Assembly: GCA_018608725.1 (NCBI GenBank)
Contig: JABAZA010000018.1
Span: 1-64,000, forward strand
Direction: 5' to 3'
Source: Flavobacteriaceae bacterium
GTDB taxonomy: Bacteria; Bacteroidota; Bacteroidia; Flavobacteriales; Flavobacteriaceae
Length of the DNA stretch: 64,000 bases
The notes beneath the pieces were generated by a model that saw nothing but the letters and a program-made list of their open reading frames with translations, searched no databases and was not told the DNA's origin. Positions within the stretch are counted from its first letter, which is position 1. The number at the start of each line of letters is the position of its first letter. This document shows positions 22,810-29,454 of the stretch, one piece after another. The position numbers and the translations under genes were made by a program.

Positions 22810-23442
22810 TCACCCTTCAGGTTTTTCAAGTTTAAACATGCTATCTTTTGTCACACGGGTGTACCAATCGCCTCCTAAGCGTGCGACAAGATCTAATTTT
22901 TCGGAATCAATTTGGTTGTTTTCATCTAAGAACTCCGATTTCACATGGATGTGTACTACTTTGGCGATGACCAATTGACCGGCACCTCCATGTTCTCCTA
23001 GAGAAACAATGTTTTCAACCACACATTCAAAGGAAACGGGGGATTCTAAAACTCTTGGAGGTTTGACTTTAACTGAAGGAACTTCAGTTAGTCCTGTTTC
23101 AATAAATTCATTCACGCCTTTGTCATATTCTTTACTAGTTTCTGACATTTGTTCTACAATCGAAAAATCGACAGTATTAATCACGACCTGTTTTGTTTCC
23201 ACTGCATTTTGAAGGGTATGTTTGGTAGTGTTGTCACGAACGCGTCTTGCTGGAGAGAAAATTAATATAGGGGGGTTGGAGCTAAAGACATTAAAAAAAC
23301 TAAACGGACTTAAATTGACATTTCCCTTGGCATCTATAGTACTTGCAAATGCGATGGGTCTTGGAGCAATAGAAGCGGAGAGCAGTCTATGAACGTCTCT
23401 AGTTTCTAATAATTCGGGATCAAATGATTTTACAGTTGACAT
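22810..23442 (-). CDS. Flavin reductase-like (DIM6/NTAB) FMN-binding protein
   Basis: A 210-residue split-barrel flavoprotein. The N-terminal pattern LLSASIAPRPIAFASTIDAKGNVNLSPFSFFN (residues about 19-50) is typical of the flavin reductase-like/DIM6-NTAB family. These bind FMN and act as NAD(P)H:flavin reductases or have unknown roles. It is the last gene of the Phe/Tyr catabolic operon, 10 bp after fahA. No known step of the homogentisate route needs a flavin reductase, so its role is open: it could supply reduced flavin to an oxygenase elsewhere or reduce a ring-cleavage product. Start ATG and length are normal. Confidence 0.85.
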   Translation of the reverse strand: MSTVKSFDPELLETRDVHRLLSASIAPRPIAFASTIDAKGNVNLSPFSFFNVFSSNPPILIFSPARRVRDNTTKHTLQNAVETKQVVINTVDFSIVEQMSETSKEYDKGVNEFIETGLTEVPSVKVKPPRVLESPVSFECVVENIVSLGEHGGAGQLVIAKVVHIHVKSEFLDENNQIDSEKLDLVARLGGDWYTRVTKDSMFKLEKPEG

Positions 23443-23452
23443 GCTAATTTTT

Positions 23453-24688
23453 TTAAATTGTTTTTAAAAGTGTTGATTTAACTTCTCCAAACCCCACTCG
23501 GATTGGACCTTTTTGACAATACCCTCTCATGATAACGGTATCATTATCTTGAATGAATTTTCGGGAACCACCTTCTTTTAGTTCAACAGGTTTTGAGCCT
23601 GCCCATGACAATTCGAGCATAGAACCATAAGAATCAGGACTTTTTCCACTGATGGTTCCAGATGCCATCAAATCCCCTACATTCAAATTACAACCATTAA
23701 CAGTATGATGAGCCAATTGTTGGTTCATGTTCCAATACATATATTTGAAATTGGAGTGACTTACCACGGTTTCTTTACAGTTTTCAGGTTGAATGGAAAC
23801 TTCTAATTTGATATCGTAATTTTTTGAGCCTTCAAAATTTAAATAGGGTAGAACAGAAGGGTCTTGTTTTGGCCCGTATATCTTAAAGGGTTCTAAGGCT
23901 TCTAAAGTGACCACCCATGGGGACATAGAAGAGGCGAAGCTTTTCGCTAAAAAGGGACCTAAAGGTACGTATTCCCATTTTTGAATGTCTCGTGCCGACC
24001 AATCGTTAAATAATACTTTTCCGAAAATATATTCGTCAGCAGCTGCGGTCGAAACAGTCTCCCCAAGTTGAGTTGATTTCCCAATGACAAACCCCATTTC
24101 CAATTCAAAATCGACCCGAACAGACGCTTGAAAAACAGGGGCAGTATTTGGAGCTAAAACAACTTGTCCTTTTGGTCTGTGTACATTTTCACCACTGACG
24201 ATAATCGAGGACGCACGTCCATGATACCCAACAGGTAAATGTTTCCAATTAGGGAGTAACGCATTGTCAGGATCCCTAAACATGGTTCCAATATTGGTAG
24301 CGTGTTCTATGCTTGAATAAAAATCGGTATAATCACCCACTTTTACTGGTAAATGCATCTGTACTGAGCTTTGTTTTATAAATATGGAGGGATGTGATTT
24401 TAATACTGAATTTTCATTGCAAAGTTCACTTTGAATACGTTCTCTTACTTTTACGGTGGTTGATTTTCCTAAGGCGATAAACTCATTTAAGGAGTCCGAT
24501 TCTAAAACCTTAATGTCAAAGTTTAAATCTTCAAACACGCCCAATTCATAAGCGGCATAAACATCTAATATACGGTCTCCAATAGCAACTCCGATTCTTT
24601 TGATATGATCGGATTCAGAAAAAATACCAAAAGGTAAGTTATAGATGCTAAAATCAGAATTTTCATTAATTTTAATCCAAGAGTTCAT
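23453..24688 (-). CDS. fahA: Fumarylacetoacetase
   Basis: A 411-residue FAH. The N-terminal SH3-like domain (about 1-120) precedes the catalytic FAH domain with DYTDFYSSIEHATNIGTMFR (catalytic His and metal Asp region), HLPVGYHGRASSI, FELEMGFVIGKSTQLGE and LFNDWSARDIQKWEYVPLGP. It hydrolyses fumarylacetoacetate to fumarate and acetoacetate, the last step of tyrosine catabolism through homogentisate. Length matches the eukaryotic-type enzyme of about 420 residues. It is 3 bp after the phenylalanine hydroxylase gene, so translation is probably coupled. Cytosolic. Confidence 0.97.
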   Translation of the reverse strand: MNSWIKINENSDFSIYNLPFGIFSESDHIKRIGVAIGDRILDVYAAYELGVFEDLNFDIKVLESDSLNEFIALGKSTTVKVRERIQSELCNENSVLKSHPSIFIKQSSVQMHLPVKVGDYTDFYSSIEHATNIGTMFRDPDNALLPNWKHLPVGYHGRASSIIVSGENVHRPKGQVVLAPNTAPVFQASVRVDFELEMGFVIGKSTQLGETVSTAAADEYIFGKVLFNDWSARDIQKWEYVPLGPFLAKSFASSMSPWVVTLEALEPFKIYGPKQDPSVLPYLNFEGSKNYDIKLEVSIQPENCKETVVSHSNFKYMYWNMNQQLAHHTVNGCNLNVGDLMASGTISGKSPDSYGSMLELSWAGSKPVELKEGGSRKFIQDNDTVIMRGYCQKGPIRVGFGEVKSTLLKTI

Positions 24689-24691
24689 ATC

Positions 24692-26425
24692 TTATTTTTT
24701 TATAATTAAATCTAAGCCATCTGTAATGAGCTTTGTGAATTGTTTGTTTTGTTTTAATTTGAGTAGCTCCTCATGAATCTCATTTTTTAAAGATAAATCT
24801 TTATCATAAACCAACTCGTATAATTCCAATAAAAGTAACCATTCAAAAGGGTAATTTGATTTAACTTCCTTGAATATTCTCATTAAGGAATCAATATTAG
24901 AATCACAATTCGTTCGATAATTTTTAACGGTTTCATACAACTGATGCAATTGTTGTTCTTCGGCAGAATAAATGATTTTAGCAGTTTTAGTATCCGATAT
25001 AGTATAGATGTCTTCAAACGAATTTGAATCTGCAGCTCCCGCAAATGCGGAGCAAATATGGTTTCCGATTGCCATGTCATAAACGCCCCAACTCGAATCA
25101 AATAAGAGGGTTTCAAAATGGGTTACTCTACAGTTTTTAAAGGTTATTAAAATAATTTTTCCCTGTAAATCTCTTTTACCTGTCACAATCGTTCCTTCAA
25201 CTTTTACACCTCCCTCAAAAATAAGGCAGGTATTTTTTCCTTCGATAATACCATAGACTTCTAGGTCTTTGGGTGACATATCTTCGATAGCAATATTAAT
25301 TCCTTCTAATTTTCCAATGGGACTTCCAAAACCACTAGGGTGGTGTTCGGTGCCGTGTCCTATCAATTCGGTTCCTTTGACAGAAAGGGCGGTTGGGCTA
25401 TTGGTTTGAAAGTAAATAGGTCTATTATTGGCATCTAGAACATTGTTAAATATTCCTGAAACTTGAATTCCTGTACTCAATTCGATTGTTCCTAGTTTTT
25501 TAGAAACAATGAGTTTTTTTAATCCCTCTAAACCACCTGTTCGTATTGCCATTGTATTTGCGAATTTTTCTAAAACAAAGCTAAGACTTGCAAAGTTAGG
25601 AATTACAAATAATTGGGGTTGTGTGTTAGTGATATCAAAATTGACATCCGCCGCTTCAATAGAATACGGTATTTTTTTAACCTCATTTTTTAAACATAAC
25701 TGACTTTCTTCAATGGAAGATAACAGCCCTGCACCATATAGTTTTGGATTTTCGAGTGTTCCAATAAGTCCATATTCAACGGTCCACCAATGGAGGTTTC
25801 TAATTTTAGCCATTTCAGAAAGTTCACCCATATTTTCTTGAAGCGTATTTACAGCTTTGGTAGCTTCTAAAATTTCTGTTTTTGTAGAATTTGGATTTTC
25901 TTTTAAAATAGATAAAAGCCGAATGGCCTCGTACATTTCATCGTCTTTGGGTGATGAAATGGCTTTAGATCCAATTTCTCCTAACCGTCTTAGGTATTCC
26001 GAGTATTCTGGATTTGCAATAATGGGTGCATGTCCTGCTGCTTCGTGAATAATGTCGGGAGCGGGTGTATAATTTATGTGCTCAATAGTTCTAATTTCCG
26101 ATGAAATGACAAGCACATTATAGGCTTGAAATTCCATAAAGGCATTCGGTGGAATAAATCCATCAACTGCAACTGCTGCCCATCCAATTTCCTTTAGAAT
26201 ACGATTCATGCCTTCCATTCTAGGAATCATTTCTTGGTCAATCCCTGTTTTTTTTAGACCTTTTATGTAGCTTTTATGTGCTATTTGTTTTAAGGCATTG
26301 ATATTTAATCGCATCACATACCGCCATACCGCTTGATTTTGGGCGGTATAATCATCATAAGGTTGTTGTACTATAAACTTATGAAGGTGAGTGGGTAACT
26401 TTTTTGTAACGCTGTTAAACTGCAT
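24692..26425 (-). CDS. Aromatic amino acid (phenylalanine 4-) hydroxylase with long C-terminal extension
   Basis: A 577-residue pterin-dependent hydroxylase. The iron site is clear: PDIIHEAAGH at 123-132 gives His127 and His132, with Glu217 in WWTVEYG. Typical bacterial PhhA enzymes have about 260-300 residues and end soon after the catalytic domain. Here about 270-300 more residues follow, including IELSTGIQVSGIFN, FEGGVKVEGTIVTGKRDLQGK and a helical tail; they resemble no ACT domain I recognise. It converts Phe to Tyr with O2 and tetrahydropterin, feeding hppD upstream in the operon. No pterin-4a-carbinolamine dehydratase gene lies nearby. It sits 35 bp after hppD. Confidence 0.92.
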   Translation of the reverse strand: MQFNSVTKKLPTHLHKFIVQQPYDDYTAQNQAVWRYVMRLNINALKQIAHKSYIKGLKKTGIDQEMIPRMEGMNRILKEIGWAAVAVDGFIPPNAFMEFQAYNVLVISSEIRTIEHINYTPAPDIIHEAAGHAPIIANPEYSEYLRRLGEIGSKAISSPKDDEMYEAIRLLSILKENPNSTKTEILEATKAVNTLQENMGELSEMAKIRNLHWWTVEYGLIGTLENPKLYGAGLLSSIEESQLCLKNEVKKIPYSIEAADVNFDITNTQPQLFVIPNFASLSFVLEKFANTMAIRTGGLEGLKKLIVSKKLGTIELSTGIQVSGIFNNVLDANNRPIYFQTNSPTALSVKGTELIGHGTEHHPSGFGSPIGKLEGINIAIEDMSPKDLEVYGIIEGKNTCLIFEGGVKVEGTIVTGKRDLQGKIILITFKNCRVTHFETLLFDSSWGVYDMAIGNHICSAFAGAADSNSFEDIYTISDTKTAKIIYSAEEQQLHQLYETVKNYRTNCDSNIDSLMRIFKEVKSNYPFEWLLLLELYELVYDKDLSLKNEIHEELLKLKQNKQFTKLITDGLDLIIKK

Positions 26426-26460
26426 TGTATATTCTTAAAAGCTTGTATTTAAACATCCGA

Positions 26461-27618
26461 TTATAGGGTTCCTCTGTTTTTTTGTTCTCTTTCGATAGCT
26501 TCAAACAGTGCTTTGAAATTTCCTGCACCAAACCCTCTAGCTCCCATTCTTTGGATAATTTCAAAAAATAGGGTGGGTCTGTCTTCTACAGGTTTGGTGA
26601 ATATTTGTAATAAATAGCCTTCTTCATCTGCGTCAATCATAATTCCAAGCGATTTTAATTTTTCAATATCTTCTGCCAATTCATGGTTGTGGTCAGAAAG
26701 TCTTTTTGGAACAGATTTGTAATATTCGTCTGGGGGTGTACTTAAAAACTCAACGCCTTTAGCTCTCATTTTTGCAACAGTATCAATTATATTGTTTGTT
26801 GCAACAGCAATATGCTGAACTCCTGGTCCATTGTAAAAGTCGATATATTCCTCAATTTGAGACTTCTTTTTTCCTTCTGCAGGTTCGTTAATTGGAAATT
26901 TAATTCTTCCATTTCCGTTGCTCATAACTTTACTCATTAATGCAGAGTATTCTGTTGTAATTTGCTTGTCATCAAAAGACAAGAAATTTACAAAGCCCAT
27001 AACATCTTCGTAATATTTAACCCAGACATCCATTTCATTCCAACCCACATTACCGACCATATGATCTACAAATTTAAGACCCATTGGTTCCGGGTTGTAT
27101 GCTGACTCCCATGCTTCGTAACCTGGTAAAAACACCCCTGTATAGTTTTTTCGTTCTACAAAAATGTGAACGGTTTCACCATAGGTGTAAATCCCAGCTC
27201 TAACAACTTCACCATATTGGTCTTTTTCAATCCTTGGCTCCATATAAGATTTTGCACCTCTTTTAGTTGTTTCTTCCCACGATTTTTTAGCATCATCAAC
27301 CCACAAAGCCACCACTTTTACACCATCACCATGCATAGATAAATGGTCATTCATCCATGAATCTTTGTGAAGTGGGGTGGTTAATACCAATTTTATTTTA
27401 TCTTGTTTTATAACATAGGATGCGTATTCGGTGCACCCGGTTTCTAATCCTTTATAGGCATGCGATTGAAATCCAAAAGCAGTTTTGTAAAAATGGGCAG
27501 CTTGTTTTGCATTCCCTACAATAAATTCGATATAATCAGTACCTAATAACGGAAGAAAATCTTGAGCTTCATCAAATATTTTTTCCAATCCGTATTCTAC
27601 GTTAACTATATTACTCAT
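26461..27618 (-). CDS. hppD: 4-hydroxyphenylpyruvate dioxygenase
   Basis: A 385-residue Fe(II) dioxygenase of the vicinal oxygen chelate fold with two tandem domains (about 20-155 and 180-365). The iron ligands are visible in the second: His186 (FVDHMVG), His269 (GVQHIAV) and Glu353 (FFEIIQR). The C-terminal GARGFGAGNFKALFEAIE segment that closes the active site is conserved. It converts 4-hydroxyphenylpyruvate to homogentisate with decarboxylation and side-chain migration. It lies 14 bp after hmgA in the catabolic operon. The tyrosine aminotransferase that supplies its substrate is not in the window. Confidence 0.97.
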   Translation of the reverse strand: MSNIVNVEYGLEKIFDEAQDFLPLLGTDYIEFIVGNAKQAAHFYKTAFGFQSHAYKGLETGCTEYASYVIKQDKIKLVLTTPLHKDSWMNDHLSMHGDGVKVVALWVDDAKKSWEETTKRGAKSYMEPRIEKDQYGEVVRAGIYTYGETVHIFVERKNYTGVFLPGYEAWESAYNPEPMGLKFVDHMVGNVGWNEMDVWVKYYEDVMGFVNFLSFDDKQITTEYSALMSKVMSNGNGRIKFPINEPAEGKKKSQIEEYIDFYNGPGVQHIAVATNNIIDTVAKMRAKGVEFLSTPPDEYYKSVPKRLSDHNHELAEDIEKLKSLGIMIDADEEGYLLQIFTKPVEDRPTLFFEIIQRMGARGFGAGNFKALFEAIEREQKNRGTL

Positions 27619-27632
27619 AACAGTTTTAAGTT

Positions 27633-28793
27633 TTATTTATTAATCCAAGATTTATAATAATCGTCCACTTGTAATTTTATGGCGTTTTCTGTTACCATTA
27701 ATGGACTAAAGGTATCCACCATCACGGCGAGTTCAAAGGTTTCTTTTTTACCGATGCTTTTTTCCATTGTTCCTGGGTGTGGTCCGTGTGGAATTCCAGC
27801 AGGGTGTAAGGAAATACTGCCCTTATTAATATCATTTCTACTCATAAAGTCGCCATCGACATAATAAAGAACTTCATCAGAATCAATGTTAGAATGGTTG
27901 TAGGGTGCTGGTACTGAATTTGGGTGGTAATCATACAACCGAGGTACAAACGAACAGATGACAAAGTTGTTTGTTTCAAATGTTTGATGAATTGGTGGGG
28001 GTTGATGAATCATCCCTGTAATGGGTTCAAAATCGTGAATAGAAAATTTATAAGGGAAGTTATACCCGTCCCATCCAACCACACTAAATGGATGTGAAGC
28101 ATACACATATTCGTGTATAGTATCTTGTTTTTTTACTTTGATTATAAAATCACCTGTTTCATTAAATGTTTCAAGTTCGGTAGGTGGATGGAGATCGCGT
28201 TCGCAATAGGGTGCTCCTTCTACATGCTGACCAAACCAGTTTCGGTAGCGTTTTGGGGTGTAAACAGGACTTTTTGACTCTACGATGAATAAACGATTGT
28301 TTGCATCCTTAAATTCAATTTGATAGATGATCCCCCTAGGAATCACAAGATAATCTCCATATTTGAATTCGATATTCCCTAGATTTGTTCTCAGCTTCCC
28401 TGAACCTTCATGGACAAATAGGACTTCATCGGAATCGGTGTTTTTATAAAAATAAGTCGTCAATGATTCTTTGGGAGCCGCCAAACTAATCTGACAATCG
28501 TTATTCATTAAAACACAAGTCCTACTTTCTAAATAATCATTTGTAGGAGCCACATTGAAGCCTTCTAGTTTCAAGGATTTCATGTTTTTAGATACTGCAA
28601 TTTTTGGAGCCACATCATAAGATTTTAAAATTTCCTTGACTTGAGTCGGACGTTGTGTATGATACATCAATGTTGACATCCCATCAAATCCAATGGTGCC
28701 AAACAATTCTTCGTAATAGAAGTTGTTGTTTGCGTCTTTAAAAACCGTGTGTCTCTTTTGGGGGATTTTTCCTAGCGTATGATATCTTGGCAT
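27633..28793 (-). CDS. hmgA: Homogentisate 1,2-dioxygenase
   Basis: A 386-residue cupin dioxygenase, shorter than the 430-445 residues of Pseudomonas or human HGD, with a compact N-terminal domain. Iron-binding features include SDEVLYYVDGDF and SLHPAGIPHGPHPG near the C-terminus; the earlier DEVLFVHEGSG and GDYLVIPRGIIYQ form the N-terminal cupin. It cleaves the homogentisate ring to maleylacetoacetate. It is the first gene of the five-gene operon and is divergent from an Lrp/AsnC regulator. Its -7 box overlaps an inverted repeat that is a good operator candidate. Confidence 0.94.
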   Translation of the reverse strand: MPRYHTLGKIPQKRHTVFKDANNNFYYEELFGTIGFDGMSTLMYHTQRPTQVKEILKSYDVAPKIAVSKNMKSLKLEGFNVAPTNDYLESRTCVLMNNDCQISLAAPKESLTTYFYKNTDSDEVLFVHEGSGKLRTNLGNIEFKYGDYLVIPRGIIYQIEFKDANNRLFIVESKSPVYTPKRYRNWFGQHVEGAPYCERDLHPPTELETFNETGDFIIKVKKQDTIHEYVYASHPFSVVGWDGYNFPYKFSIHDFEPITGMIHQPPPIHQTFETNNFVICSFVPRLYDYHPNSVPAPYNHSNIDSDEVLYYVDGDFMSRNDINKGSISLHPAGIPHGPHPGTMEKSIGKKETFELAVMVDTFSPLMVTENAIKLQVDDYYKSWINK

Positions 28794-28977: not shown

Positions 28978-29454
28978 ATGCTTGATAAACTCAACAAAAC
29001 CGATATTGAAATATTAAGACTGTTACAGCAAAATAGTAACCGCACCATAAAAAACATTGCTGACCTTTTAGGGATGACCACCACACCTGTATTCGATCGC
29101 ATTAAAAAACTGGAAAAGAAAGGTTATATCAGTAAATATGCTGCAATTTTGAATTCTAAAAAATTGGGTCTAAAATTGACTGTTTTTGCTGGAATTGCCC
29201 TTAAAAACCACACACGGAGTTATTTAGAAAAATTTGTAAAAACCATCAATGGATTTCCTGAAGTGGTTGAGTGTCACCGAGTGTCGGGTAATTTTGATTA
29301 TTTATTAAAATTGGTGTTGGTGGATATCGAAGACTACGAACAATTTATTTTAACAAAACTCGCACTTATAACAGATTTAAGCAACGTACAAAGTTATGTA
29401 GCACTGTCTGAAAGCAAATCCACTAATGAGGTGAATTTAGATCATTTGGTATAA
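28978..29454 (+). CDS. Lrp/AsnC family transcriptional regulator (probable regulator of Phe/Tyr catabolism)
   Basis: A 158-residue regulator with an N-terminal winged helix-turn-helix (about 1-60: DIEILRLLQQNSNRTIKNIA, then TTTPVFDRIKKLEKKGYISKY) and a C-terminal RAM effector-binding domain (about 65-150, PEVVECHRVSGNFDYLL). Family members form octamers and sense amino acids. It is transcribed away from the hmgA-hppD-hydroxylase-fahA operon, and local Lrp genes commonly control the adjacent amino acid pathway. Sensing of Phe, Tyr or a pathway intermediate is therefore likely but inferred. Its stop lies 2 bp from that of the convergent secreted-protein gene. Confidence 0.92.
   Translation: MLDKLNKTDIEILRLLQQNSNRTIKNIADLLGMTTTPVFDRIKKLEKKGYISKYAAILNSKKLGLKLTVFAGIALKNHTRSYLEKFVKTINGFPEVVECHRVSGNFDYLLKLVLVDIEDYEQFILTKLALITDLSNVQSYVALSESKSTNEVNLDHLV

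Follow-up and report, generated by a model that had tools for sequence, protein, structure and literature searches.

A split-barrel flavoprotein encoded downstream of fahA as the leading candidate for the maleylacetoacetate step of the homogentisate pathway in Bacteroidia

Maleylacetoacetate (MAA) isomerization in the homogentisate pathway is the step of MaiA, a glutathione-dependent enzyme. A precedent for a non-GST enzyme in bacteria without glutathione is the mycothiol-dependent maleylpyruvate isomerase. Bacillithiol transferases of the DinB/STL superfamily are likewise non-GST enzymes from bacteria that lack glutathione (PMC10950700). A gene cluster comparable to the one described here was presented in 2021 for Bacteroidales 4484-276 bin11, in which hmgA, hppD, fahA, and a flavin reductase-like gene lie side by side (PMC8674449). 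In its sections on this cluster, that paper reports finding no maiA in the metagenome, records the isomerase gap, highlights an adjacent isomerase/cyclase-like gene, and gives the flavin reductase no step. Judged by titles and the openings of abstracts in the open-access literature searched, it was the only publication directly relevant to the assignment of this step; the main text of PMC9007349 contains neither the word maleylacetoacetate nor maiA.

The window analyzed in this study is a stretch of 64,000 nucleotides from a Flavobacteriaceae bacterium. Its minus strand carries at 22810 to 28793 a five-gene operon of hmgA, hppD, an aromatic amino acid hydroxylase gene, fahA, and a gene for a flavoprotein, FLV (Table 1). 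The sequence-only reading had described this operon with gaps of 3 to 35 bp, which was borne out by family profiles and by intergenic distances of 14, 35, 3, and 10 bp in gene order. HppD, HmgA, and FahA are encoded together, as in a homogentisate pathway operon, with HmgA scoring 63.6 bits and thus below the NCBIfam equivalog cutoff of 510.75. All three PDB matches of HmgA are homogentisate dioxygenases, and judging by its sequence, the hmgA of the window is of a divergent type. Besides FLV, the operon encodes only two dioxygenases, the biopterin-type hydroxylase, and FahA, and no partner flavin-dependent monooxygenase. Promoter and terminator scans stayed near chance, with 31 and 6 matches versus 25.8 and 4.9 expected from shuffled sequence, respectively, and carry no weight here. 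An Lrp/AsnC-type gene adjoins the operon in several related loci as well.

Table 1. Features of the homogentisate operon and the adjoining regulator gene in the window
Feature	Coordinates	Strand	Basis
hmgA, short and divergent homogentisate 1,2-dioxygenase, 386 aa, operon gene 1	27633..28793	-	Profiles and PDB matches
hppD, 4-hydroxyphenylpyruvate dioxygenase, 385 aa	26461..27618	-	TIGR01263, 438.1 bits (cutoff 277)
Aromatic amino acid hydroxylase, 577 aa	24692..26425	-	NF010657, 800.4 bits (cutoff 346)
fahA, fumarylacetoacetase, 411 aa	23453..24688	-	TIGR01266, 558.9 bits (cutoff 375.3); PDB 5ti1, E 4.8e-144
FLV, split-barrel flavoprotein of family PF01613, 210 aa; candidate enzyme of the MAA step	22810..23442	-	PF01613, 68 bits (cutoff 27)
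Lrp/AsnC-type regulator gene, divergent, facing the operon	28978..29454	+	

The same reading had seen no maiA in the operon and called for a genome search. Neither maiA (TIGR01262) nor a GST_N_3 domain was detected in the genome of the window. As the completeness of this assembly is only 82.5%, more weight rests on the class-wide search: no glutathione-dependent MaiA scored above the cutoff in any of 197 Bacteroidia genomes or in any of the 198 genomes of a phylum sample, while the positive controls Escherichia coli, Caulobacter, and Synechococcus were matched. MaiA was missing throughout the class and phylum samples, and its absence is not a gap of the draft genome. One Bacteroidia genome (G139) gave weak GST-like matches.

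Homologues of hmgA were present in 178 of the 197 Bacteroidia genomes and fahA in 128, yet no gene has been assigned to the isomerization. FLV, found in 180 of the 197, tracks the homogentisate pathway in this class. It was detected in 174 of 178 genomes with hmgA, leaving four without it, versus 6 of 19 genomes lacking hmgA (Fisher P = 8e-13, with relatedness ignored). Elsewhere in the phylum, the corresponding values were 42 of 56 and 11 of 93. Of the 11 genomes in the latter group, 10 were inspected at the locus level (G264 was left out), and in 8 of these the match extended into the long C terminus. Of the 56 hmgA-bearing genomes from outside the class, 14 had no FLV at an E value of 1e-20, and maiA was also absent from this sample; this main counter-example points to further routes or to a reaction that proceeds spontaneously.

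Gene order ties FLV to fahA more closely than to the remaining pathway genes. Among 80 named loci, 44 have FLV as the gene immediately following fahA, and 13 of these 44 contain no other pathway gene. In a second set (L081 to L160), assembled largely from the highest-ranking FLV matches with L142 and L143 picked by fahA, adjacency was seen in only 11 of 77 loci, L094, L125, and L132 being excluded because the open reading frame caller returned no FLV. Loci of both sets were picked by FLV or fahA and are not a random draw. In every adjacent pair fahA is the upstream gene, and 18 pairs across both sets stand without another pathway gene. Throughout the 157 FLV loci (L001 to L160), FLV never adjoins hmgA, hppD, or the hydroxylase gene unless it also adjoins fahA. 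The order hmgA-fahA-FLV was present in all nine further loci chosen for the proximity of hmgA to FLV, eight of them from outside the class; one outside-class genome with such proximity, G269, was left out. A second, short FAH type also pairs with FLV. On the FLV tree, the fahA adjacency label requires at least 16 changes, 5 of them forced by starred branches, with gain and loss undistinguished and loci omitted where FLV is the first or last gene with no fahA beside it.

In the inspected loci, whose other neighbors were named partly by eye, FLV alone was recognized as a recurrent fahA partner with no assigned step. A set of 60 fahA loci, with fahA recognizable in 59 (none in L174), included one locus, L215, with FLV next to fahA; the other recurrent neighbors, named by eye as GlyA, RelA/SpoT, Fur, and PurA, appear to be housekeeping genes. 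Initially unassigned genes of some related clusters turned out to encode products such as CoA-transferase subunits, a metallo-beta-lactamase-fold protein, and an aminotransferase and were rejected as candidates. A 124-aa protein recurs beside FLV in 33 loci and offers no functional clue, and some genes within related clusters have no Pfam match.

FLV matches PF01613 and no other family, with neither GST domains nor a match to the maiA model. Its predicted split-barrel FMN-binding fold is supported by an AlphaFold2 model of a relative, L017, which superposes on PDB 3bpk over 169 residues (rmsd 2.0); the FLV of the window was modeled separately (pLDDT 84.4) and does not contain the approximately 90-residue C-terminal extension seen in most relatives. 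Residue R66 is arginine in all 58 fahA-adjacent FLVs and in all nine loci L282 to L290 and is rare off the pathway, occurring in 1 of 10 relatives from genomes without hmgA and in 1 of 4 plasmid relatives, for a motif that was selected after the alignment had been viewed. As far as the alignment goes, arginine R66 marks pathway-linked FLVs. Cys140 is invariant in 45 FLVs, yet it also occurs in remote relatives, which rules it out as a specific catalytic residue; no such residue was therefore identified.

These observations make FLV the best candidate for the MAA step, which it might carry out by isomerization or by reduction. Counting against it are the 14 FLV-free genomes outside the class, the four in the Bacteroidia, FLV relatives in genomes lacking hmgA, and the many loci of the second set in which FLV does not adjoin fahA. 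The reading we favor, with a probability of roughly 45%, is that the operon encodes a homogentisate pathway without a glutathione-dependent isomerase, in which FLV isomerizes MAA with reduced flavin. We infer that FLV binds FMN and that MAA is its substrate. HmgA would produce MAA, whose cis double bond is the obstacle that FLV, as a member of the split-barrel flavin reductase superfamily, would take away. Reduced flavin may add reversibly to the enedione, followed by rotation and elimination, so that cis-trans isomerization would yield fumarylacetoacetate for cleavage by FahA. The suggestion of the sequence-only reading that the flavin protein supplies the isomerization or a related detoxification gains from the lack of MaiA in the samples and from the recurrent partnership of this protein with fahA, and it stops short of proof. 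If correct, the assignment would supply a missing step in the annotation of the pathway across much of the phylum, add a glutathione-free MAA isomerase or reductase, and give a catalytic role to a very common protein family, the usual annotation of which is just flavin reductase.

MAA is able to isomerize without an enzyme if thiols are present, and an enzyme may therefore not be essential. The isomerization could be spontaneous or proceed via another thiol (bacillithiol, cysteine, or CoA), perhaps aided by a DinB-type transferase encoded elsewhere, with FLV as an accessory redox protein. Bacillithiol has been reported in some Bacteroidetes (PMC10950700), and the 14 genomes with hmgA and without maiA and FLV are consistent with such a route. 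However, it leaves the close arrangement of FLV after fahA unexplained, and no DinB-type gene was recognized beside fahA among the partly annotated neighbor genes; we regard it as unlikely.

FLV could instead be an NAD(P)H-dependent MAA reductase whose saturation of the double bond yields succinylacetoacetate, from which FahA would release succinate and acetoacetate, making an isomerase unnecessary. Succinylacetoacetate is accepted by FAH, and maleylacetate reductase provides an analogy for the reduction of MAA. The solved relative NbaA (PDB 4z85; E 4.8e-23; Z 20.7 with the L017 model) carries the name of a nitroreductase acting on an aromatic acid, flavin reductase is a frequent name among the fold relatives, and the linkage of FLV to hmgA and fahA fits equally well. 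Such a route would, however, spend one NAD(P)H per turn for no known gain, and we judge it to be a rather unlikely variant.

Less probable still is a role in reducing benzoquinone acetate, which arises when homogentisate auto-oxidizes, back to homogentisate, or in detoxifying quinones in another way. Ligands bound by the structural relatives 3zod and 3zoc are benzene-1,4-diol and p-hydroxybenzaldehyde, homogentisate itself is a hydroquinone, and FLV relatives directly adjoin hmgA in L257 to L259 and L261. Against this, the constant partner is fahA, as the 157 loci show, seven maiA-bearing loci have no FLV although the same quinone is expected there, and the second arginine of the R66 motif is missing in L257 to L259.

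That the isomerase is the cyclase-like protein highlighted in PMC8674449, assumed here to be a PF04199 member, is very doubtful. According to the sections of that paper on the cluster, one Bacteroidales bin has its gene beside the flavin gene and three metagenomic contigs carry clusters of a similar kind, and one PF04199 gene lies elsewhere in the genome of the window (G000:C24). Counted as a whole family with all subtypes, however, PF04199 occurs in 128 of 197 Bacteroidia genomes, including G088, G144, G168, and G178 without hmgA, and is missing from genomes with hmgA, such as G002, G003, G005, and G012; it does not track hmgA and is unlikely as a general answer. Recycling of the hydroxylase's pterin cofactor, which would fit the shared operon and the presence of FLV in all 51 hydroxylase-bearing genomes, can be dismissed as a general role since hydroxylase homologues (E 1e-10) occur in 51 versus 180 of 197 genomes for FLV, 129 of the latter having none.

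Outside the Bacteroidota, 17 plasmid fahA loci, 4 of them picked by a match to an unnamed family termed HYP, comprised 7 with maiA, 8 with HYP, and 2 with neither; none contained both, and none contained FLV. High-GC loci that lose genes in the open reading frame caller (e.g., L243 and L255) were rechecked by tblastn. HYP is a neighbor of fahA or hppD-hmgA in the Bacillota and Actinomycetota, in a cyanobacterium, and in one or more genomes of the phylum to which the window belongs. No homologue was found in the 197 Bacteroidia genomes, in a search run without a positive control, and HYP was set aside as a family that might undercut FLV in this class; used as a local profile, the same alignment matches L235, L236, and L277, which are outside it, and L255. 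We tentatively suggest that three unrelated, mutually exclusive solutions serve the MAA step: MaiA in Pseudomonadota, FLV as a flavin-dependent isomerase or reductase in Bacteroidota, and HYP. They would have replaced one another with changes in the cellular thiol of the lineage. If the HYP lead holds, Actinomycetota and Bacillota would see the same gain in annotation.

Compared with known systems, the operon differs from the bin11 cassette, as presented in the cluster sections of PMC8674449, in having no isomerase/cyclase-like gene. MaiA, a zeta-class glutathione transferase whose gene is close to fahA in the seven plasmid loci, shares the proposed step, whereas FLV has a predicted PF01613 split-barrel flavoprotein fold. 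The DinB/STL proteins, characterized in the relevant part of PMC10950700 as four-helix metalloproteins without flavin, are unrelated to this fold. NbaA, the 2-nitrobenzoate nitroreductase, belongs to the superfamily of FLV and serves another pathway with another substrate. By sequence, the closest solved relatives are 3bpk, resembling nitrilotriacetate monooxygenase component B (E 2.7e-28; Z 22.1 with the L017 model), and the FMN-binding protein 1eje (E 4.8e-23; Z 21.3 with the same model). Unlike both, FLV is linked to fahA in place of a partner monooxygenase in the operon, and most of its relatives carry the C-terminal extension.

The five minus-strand genes listed below form one apparent operon with intergenic gaps of 14, 35, 3, and 10 bp in gene order, and an Lrp/AsnC-type gene lies divergent from it. 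The gene order proposed by the sequence-only reading was confirmed, and family models back the gene names. The window's HmgA is of a short divergent type (63.6 bits with TIGR01015, against a cutoff of 510.75). All three of its PDB matches are homogentisate dioxygenases, and the H, E, and H positions, which we take to be the iron ligands, are kept in the alignment with them. The last gene encodes a PF01613 split-barrel flavoprotein, here termed FLV.

Coordinates of the window operon genes and of HYP, an unnamed protein family found beside fahA outside Bacteroidota and, in L255, beside hppD-hmgA
Feature	Location	Strand	Basis or context
hmgA	28793-27633	-	family models; PDB matches
hppD	27618-26461	-	family models
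aromatic amino acid hydroxylase	26425-24692	-	family models
fahA, ordinary fumarylacetoacetase	24688-23453	-	family models
FLV, 210-aa flavoprotein	23442-22810	-	family models
HYP	L225:1186-2202		upstream of fahA, no maiA in locus
HYP	L226:4985-6001		upstream of fahA, no maiA in locus
HYP	L227:5087-5932		upstream of fahA, no maiA in locus
HYP	L233:5001-5879		upstream of fahA, no maiA in locus
HYP	L234:5013-5864		upstream of fahA, no maiA in locus
HYP	L235:4965-5882		upstream of fahA, no maiA in locus
HYP	L236, frame ending 5753		upstream of fahA, no maiA in locus
HYP	L277:4042-4887		upstream of fahA, no maiA in locus
HYP	L255:8797-9888	-	upstream of hppD-hmgA, no maiA in locus

Neither maiA (TIGR01262), encoding the glutathione-dependent maleylacetoacetate isomerase, nor GST_N_3 was found in the window's genome, which alone proves little because the genome is a 1.69-Mb draft, 82.5% complete. 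Among 197 Bacteroidia genomes (at least 90% complete except the window's own), fahA exceeded the cutoff in 128 and maiA in none, with weak GST-like matches in a single genome (G139); no maiA match was obtained among 198 genomes sampled from the phylum. The gap at the isomerase step, noticed in the operon from sequence, therefore extends far past the window's genome and is broader than could be seen from it.

FLV was matched in 180 of the 197 Bacteroidia genomes (E 1e-12) and hmgA in 178 (E 1e-20). Both were present in 174, hmgA only in 4 (G005, G022, G037, and G153), FLV only in 6 (G047, G058, G082, G092, G117, and G178), and neither in 13 (Fisher P of 8e-13, with relatedness ignored). Three of the six FLV-only genomes (G047, G082, and G178) have fahA over the cutoff. 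Within one family of genomes (f13), hmgA, fahA, and FLV are all present in G053 and G190 and all absent from G011, G088, G144, and G168, while G117 lacks hmgA and fahA and has only a weak FLV match. Neither the hydroxylase (51/197) nor the cyclase-like family PF04199 (128/197) tracks hmgA as FLV does. In the phylum outside Bacteroidia, with FLV at E 1e-20, the corresponding numbers were 42 with both, 14 with hmgA only, 11 with FLV only, and 82 with neither.

Gene order ties FLV to fahA in particular. Among 80 loci selected by FLV similarity, 44 have FLV adjoining fahA, in every case with fahA as the upstream gene and both genes on one strand; 13 of these contain no further pathway gene. The same adjacency was seen in 11 of 77 further Bacteroidia loci, which were not a random draw, 5 of them without another pathway gene. 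In none of the 157 loci did FLV adjoin hmgA, hppD, or the hydroxylase without also adjoining fahA. Nine additional loci, picked for closeness of hmgA and FLV and eight of them outside Bacteroidia, all showed the order hmgA-fahA-FLV. In the distant loci L257 to L259 and L261, FLV relatives adjoin hmgA instead of fahA. A short FAH-family protein replaces the long FahA as FLV partner in, e.g., L085 and L098, and shares an operon with the FLV relative in L261. On a 168-row FLV tree (FastTree), adjacency to fahA requires at least 16 changes, and starred branches force 5 of these. The linkage has thus changed repeatedly; 58 of 165 branches are open, and gain and loss are not told apart. Inspection by eye of 59 fahA loci, chosen mostly where FLV is nonadjacent, revealed no further recurrent catabolic gene lacking an assignment. 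Away from fahA, FLV is often accompanied by a conserved protein of ~124 aa (L019, L031, L082, L091, and 29 other loci), in some loci together with a membrane transporter-like gene.

The solved relatives nearest to FLV by sequence are 3bpk, 1eje, 4z85 (NbaA, a nitroreductase), and 3fge; the model of a full-length relative (L017; pLDDT of 88.2) matched 3bpk with a Z score of 22.1 and an rmsd of 2.0 over 169 residues. Most relatives are ~270 to 310 residues long by open frame, and the window's FLV and its near kin (L001 to L005 and L008 to L010) end at 208 to 210. A C-terminal extension of ~90 residues (GIGVD..LP...GNN.GRLGN), present in most Bacteroidota copies read, is missing from the window's Flavobacteriaceae clade; either it is dispensable in the setting of the operon or its loss accompanied a functional change. 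In the window's FLV model, loop 67-73 has a pLDDT below 50. R66, just before this loop, is Arg in 58/58 fahA-adjacent FLVs, in 97/101 nonadjacent FLVs of the same set (including L257 to L259 and L261), and in 9/9 of loci L282 to L290. It is Arg in 1 of 4 plasmid relatives (L224) and in 1 of 10 relatives from the eleven genomes without hmgA (L299, in a gapped alignment); in another of these (L291), the position is possibly shifted by one column. R66 may bind the substrate carboxylate. As the motif was chosen after the alignment had been seen and the rows are related, this signature is a lead only.

The best reading is that FLV is a candidate for acting on maleylacetoacetate, the HmgA product, just before FahA. 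FLV might isomerize maleylacetoacetate through its reduced flavin, or it might reduce it at the expense of NAD(P)H to succinylacetoacetate, which is said to be accepted by FahA; in either case FahA would follow. Flavin-dependent isomerases without net redox exist in other families. Isomerization is favored because it costs nothing, and the evidence at hand fits both chemistries alike.

Several observations count against a role of FLV at this step. In the phylum outside Bacteroidia, 14 hmgA-containing genomes lack both maiA and FLV, and 11 genomes have an FLV relative without hmgA. The hmgA loci of the former (L237 to L250) all contain hppD as well, and none of these 14 loci gave a fahA match at E 1e-4. 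Thiols can also isomerize maleylacetoacetate nonenzymatically. Bacillithiol is reported from some Bacteroidetes (PMC10950700).

In one family (f77; L237 to L241, L244, L246 to L248, L252, and L253), hppD-hmgA lies divergently beside phenylacetyl-CoA epoxidase-like genes, named by eye, and neither fahA nor FLV was recognized in these loci; homogentisate may have another fate there.

Outside the phylum, 17 plasmid loci around fahA were read, 13 hand-picked from fahA matches and 4 picked by HYP match. Seven of the hand-picked loci carry maiA (all Pseudomonadota), four carry HYP (L225 and L226, both Priestia; L227 and L277, both Streptomyces), and two from Pseudomonadota have neither nearby. The HYP-matched loci L233 to L236 (Pseudonocardia, Rhodococcus, the cyanobacterium Kovacikia, and Nonomuraea) were selected by that match and therefore show its placement, not its frequency. 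The eight HYP loci all have HYP immediately upstream of fahA. Of the 17 loci, none contains both maiA and HYP, and none contains FLV. HYP proteins have 280 to 340 aa and the motifs R[TC]GG, TAGLH, and [YF]G[ST]CS; they matched nothing in Pfam at E 1 or in NCBIfam, sequence comparison with the PDB yielded no credible relative, and they were not found in the 197 Bacteroidia genomes. In G350, from the phylum outside Bacteroidia, HYP is the first gene of a HYP-hppD-hmgA operon, and the FLV match is only 36% identical. Besides FLV, HYP is another candidate for acting on maleylacetoacetate. Bacillota and Actinomycetota are not known to contain glutathione. Cyanobacteria have it, and the cyanobacterial HYP locus is harder to reconcile with a simple thiol rule. 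The window-type HmgA shares 40 to 53% identity with those of L225 and L233 to L236 (Bacillota, Actinomycetota, and a cyanobacterium), and HmgA of the Pseudomonadota loci is much more distant (21 to 25% where matched); which type of HmgA a locus encodes seems to correlate with which isomerase candidate it carries. Plasmid FLV relatives, 36 to 41% identical among 60 listed of 300 records, occur, where examined, in other settings. Rhizobial L222 and L224 and several other plasmid matches adjoin Asp/Glu racemase-family genes, a superfamily that includes maleate cis-trans isomerase.

The literature searched gave no earlier account of the phylum-wide association of FLV with the pathway, of its pairing with fahA, of the residue signature, or of HYP as an alternative. 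The isomerase gap and the flavin gene neighborhood are already in print for one uncultured Bacteroidales bin, in which a flavin reductase gene adjoins the pathway genes (PMC8674449). That report pointed to an isomerase/cyclase-like neighbor and did not assign the flavin gene to a step. The flavin gene of the window operon, first guessed at in the sequence-only reading, is now the leading candidate for the maleylacetoacetate step.
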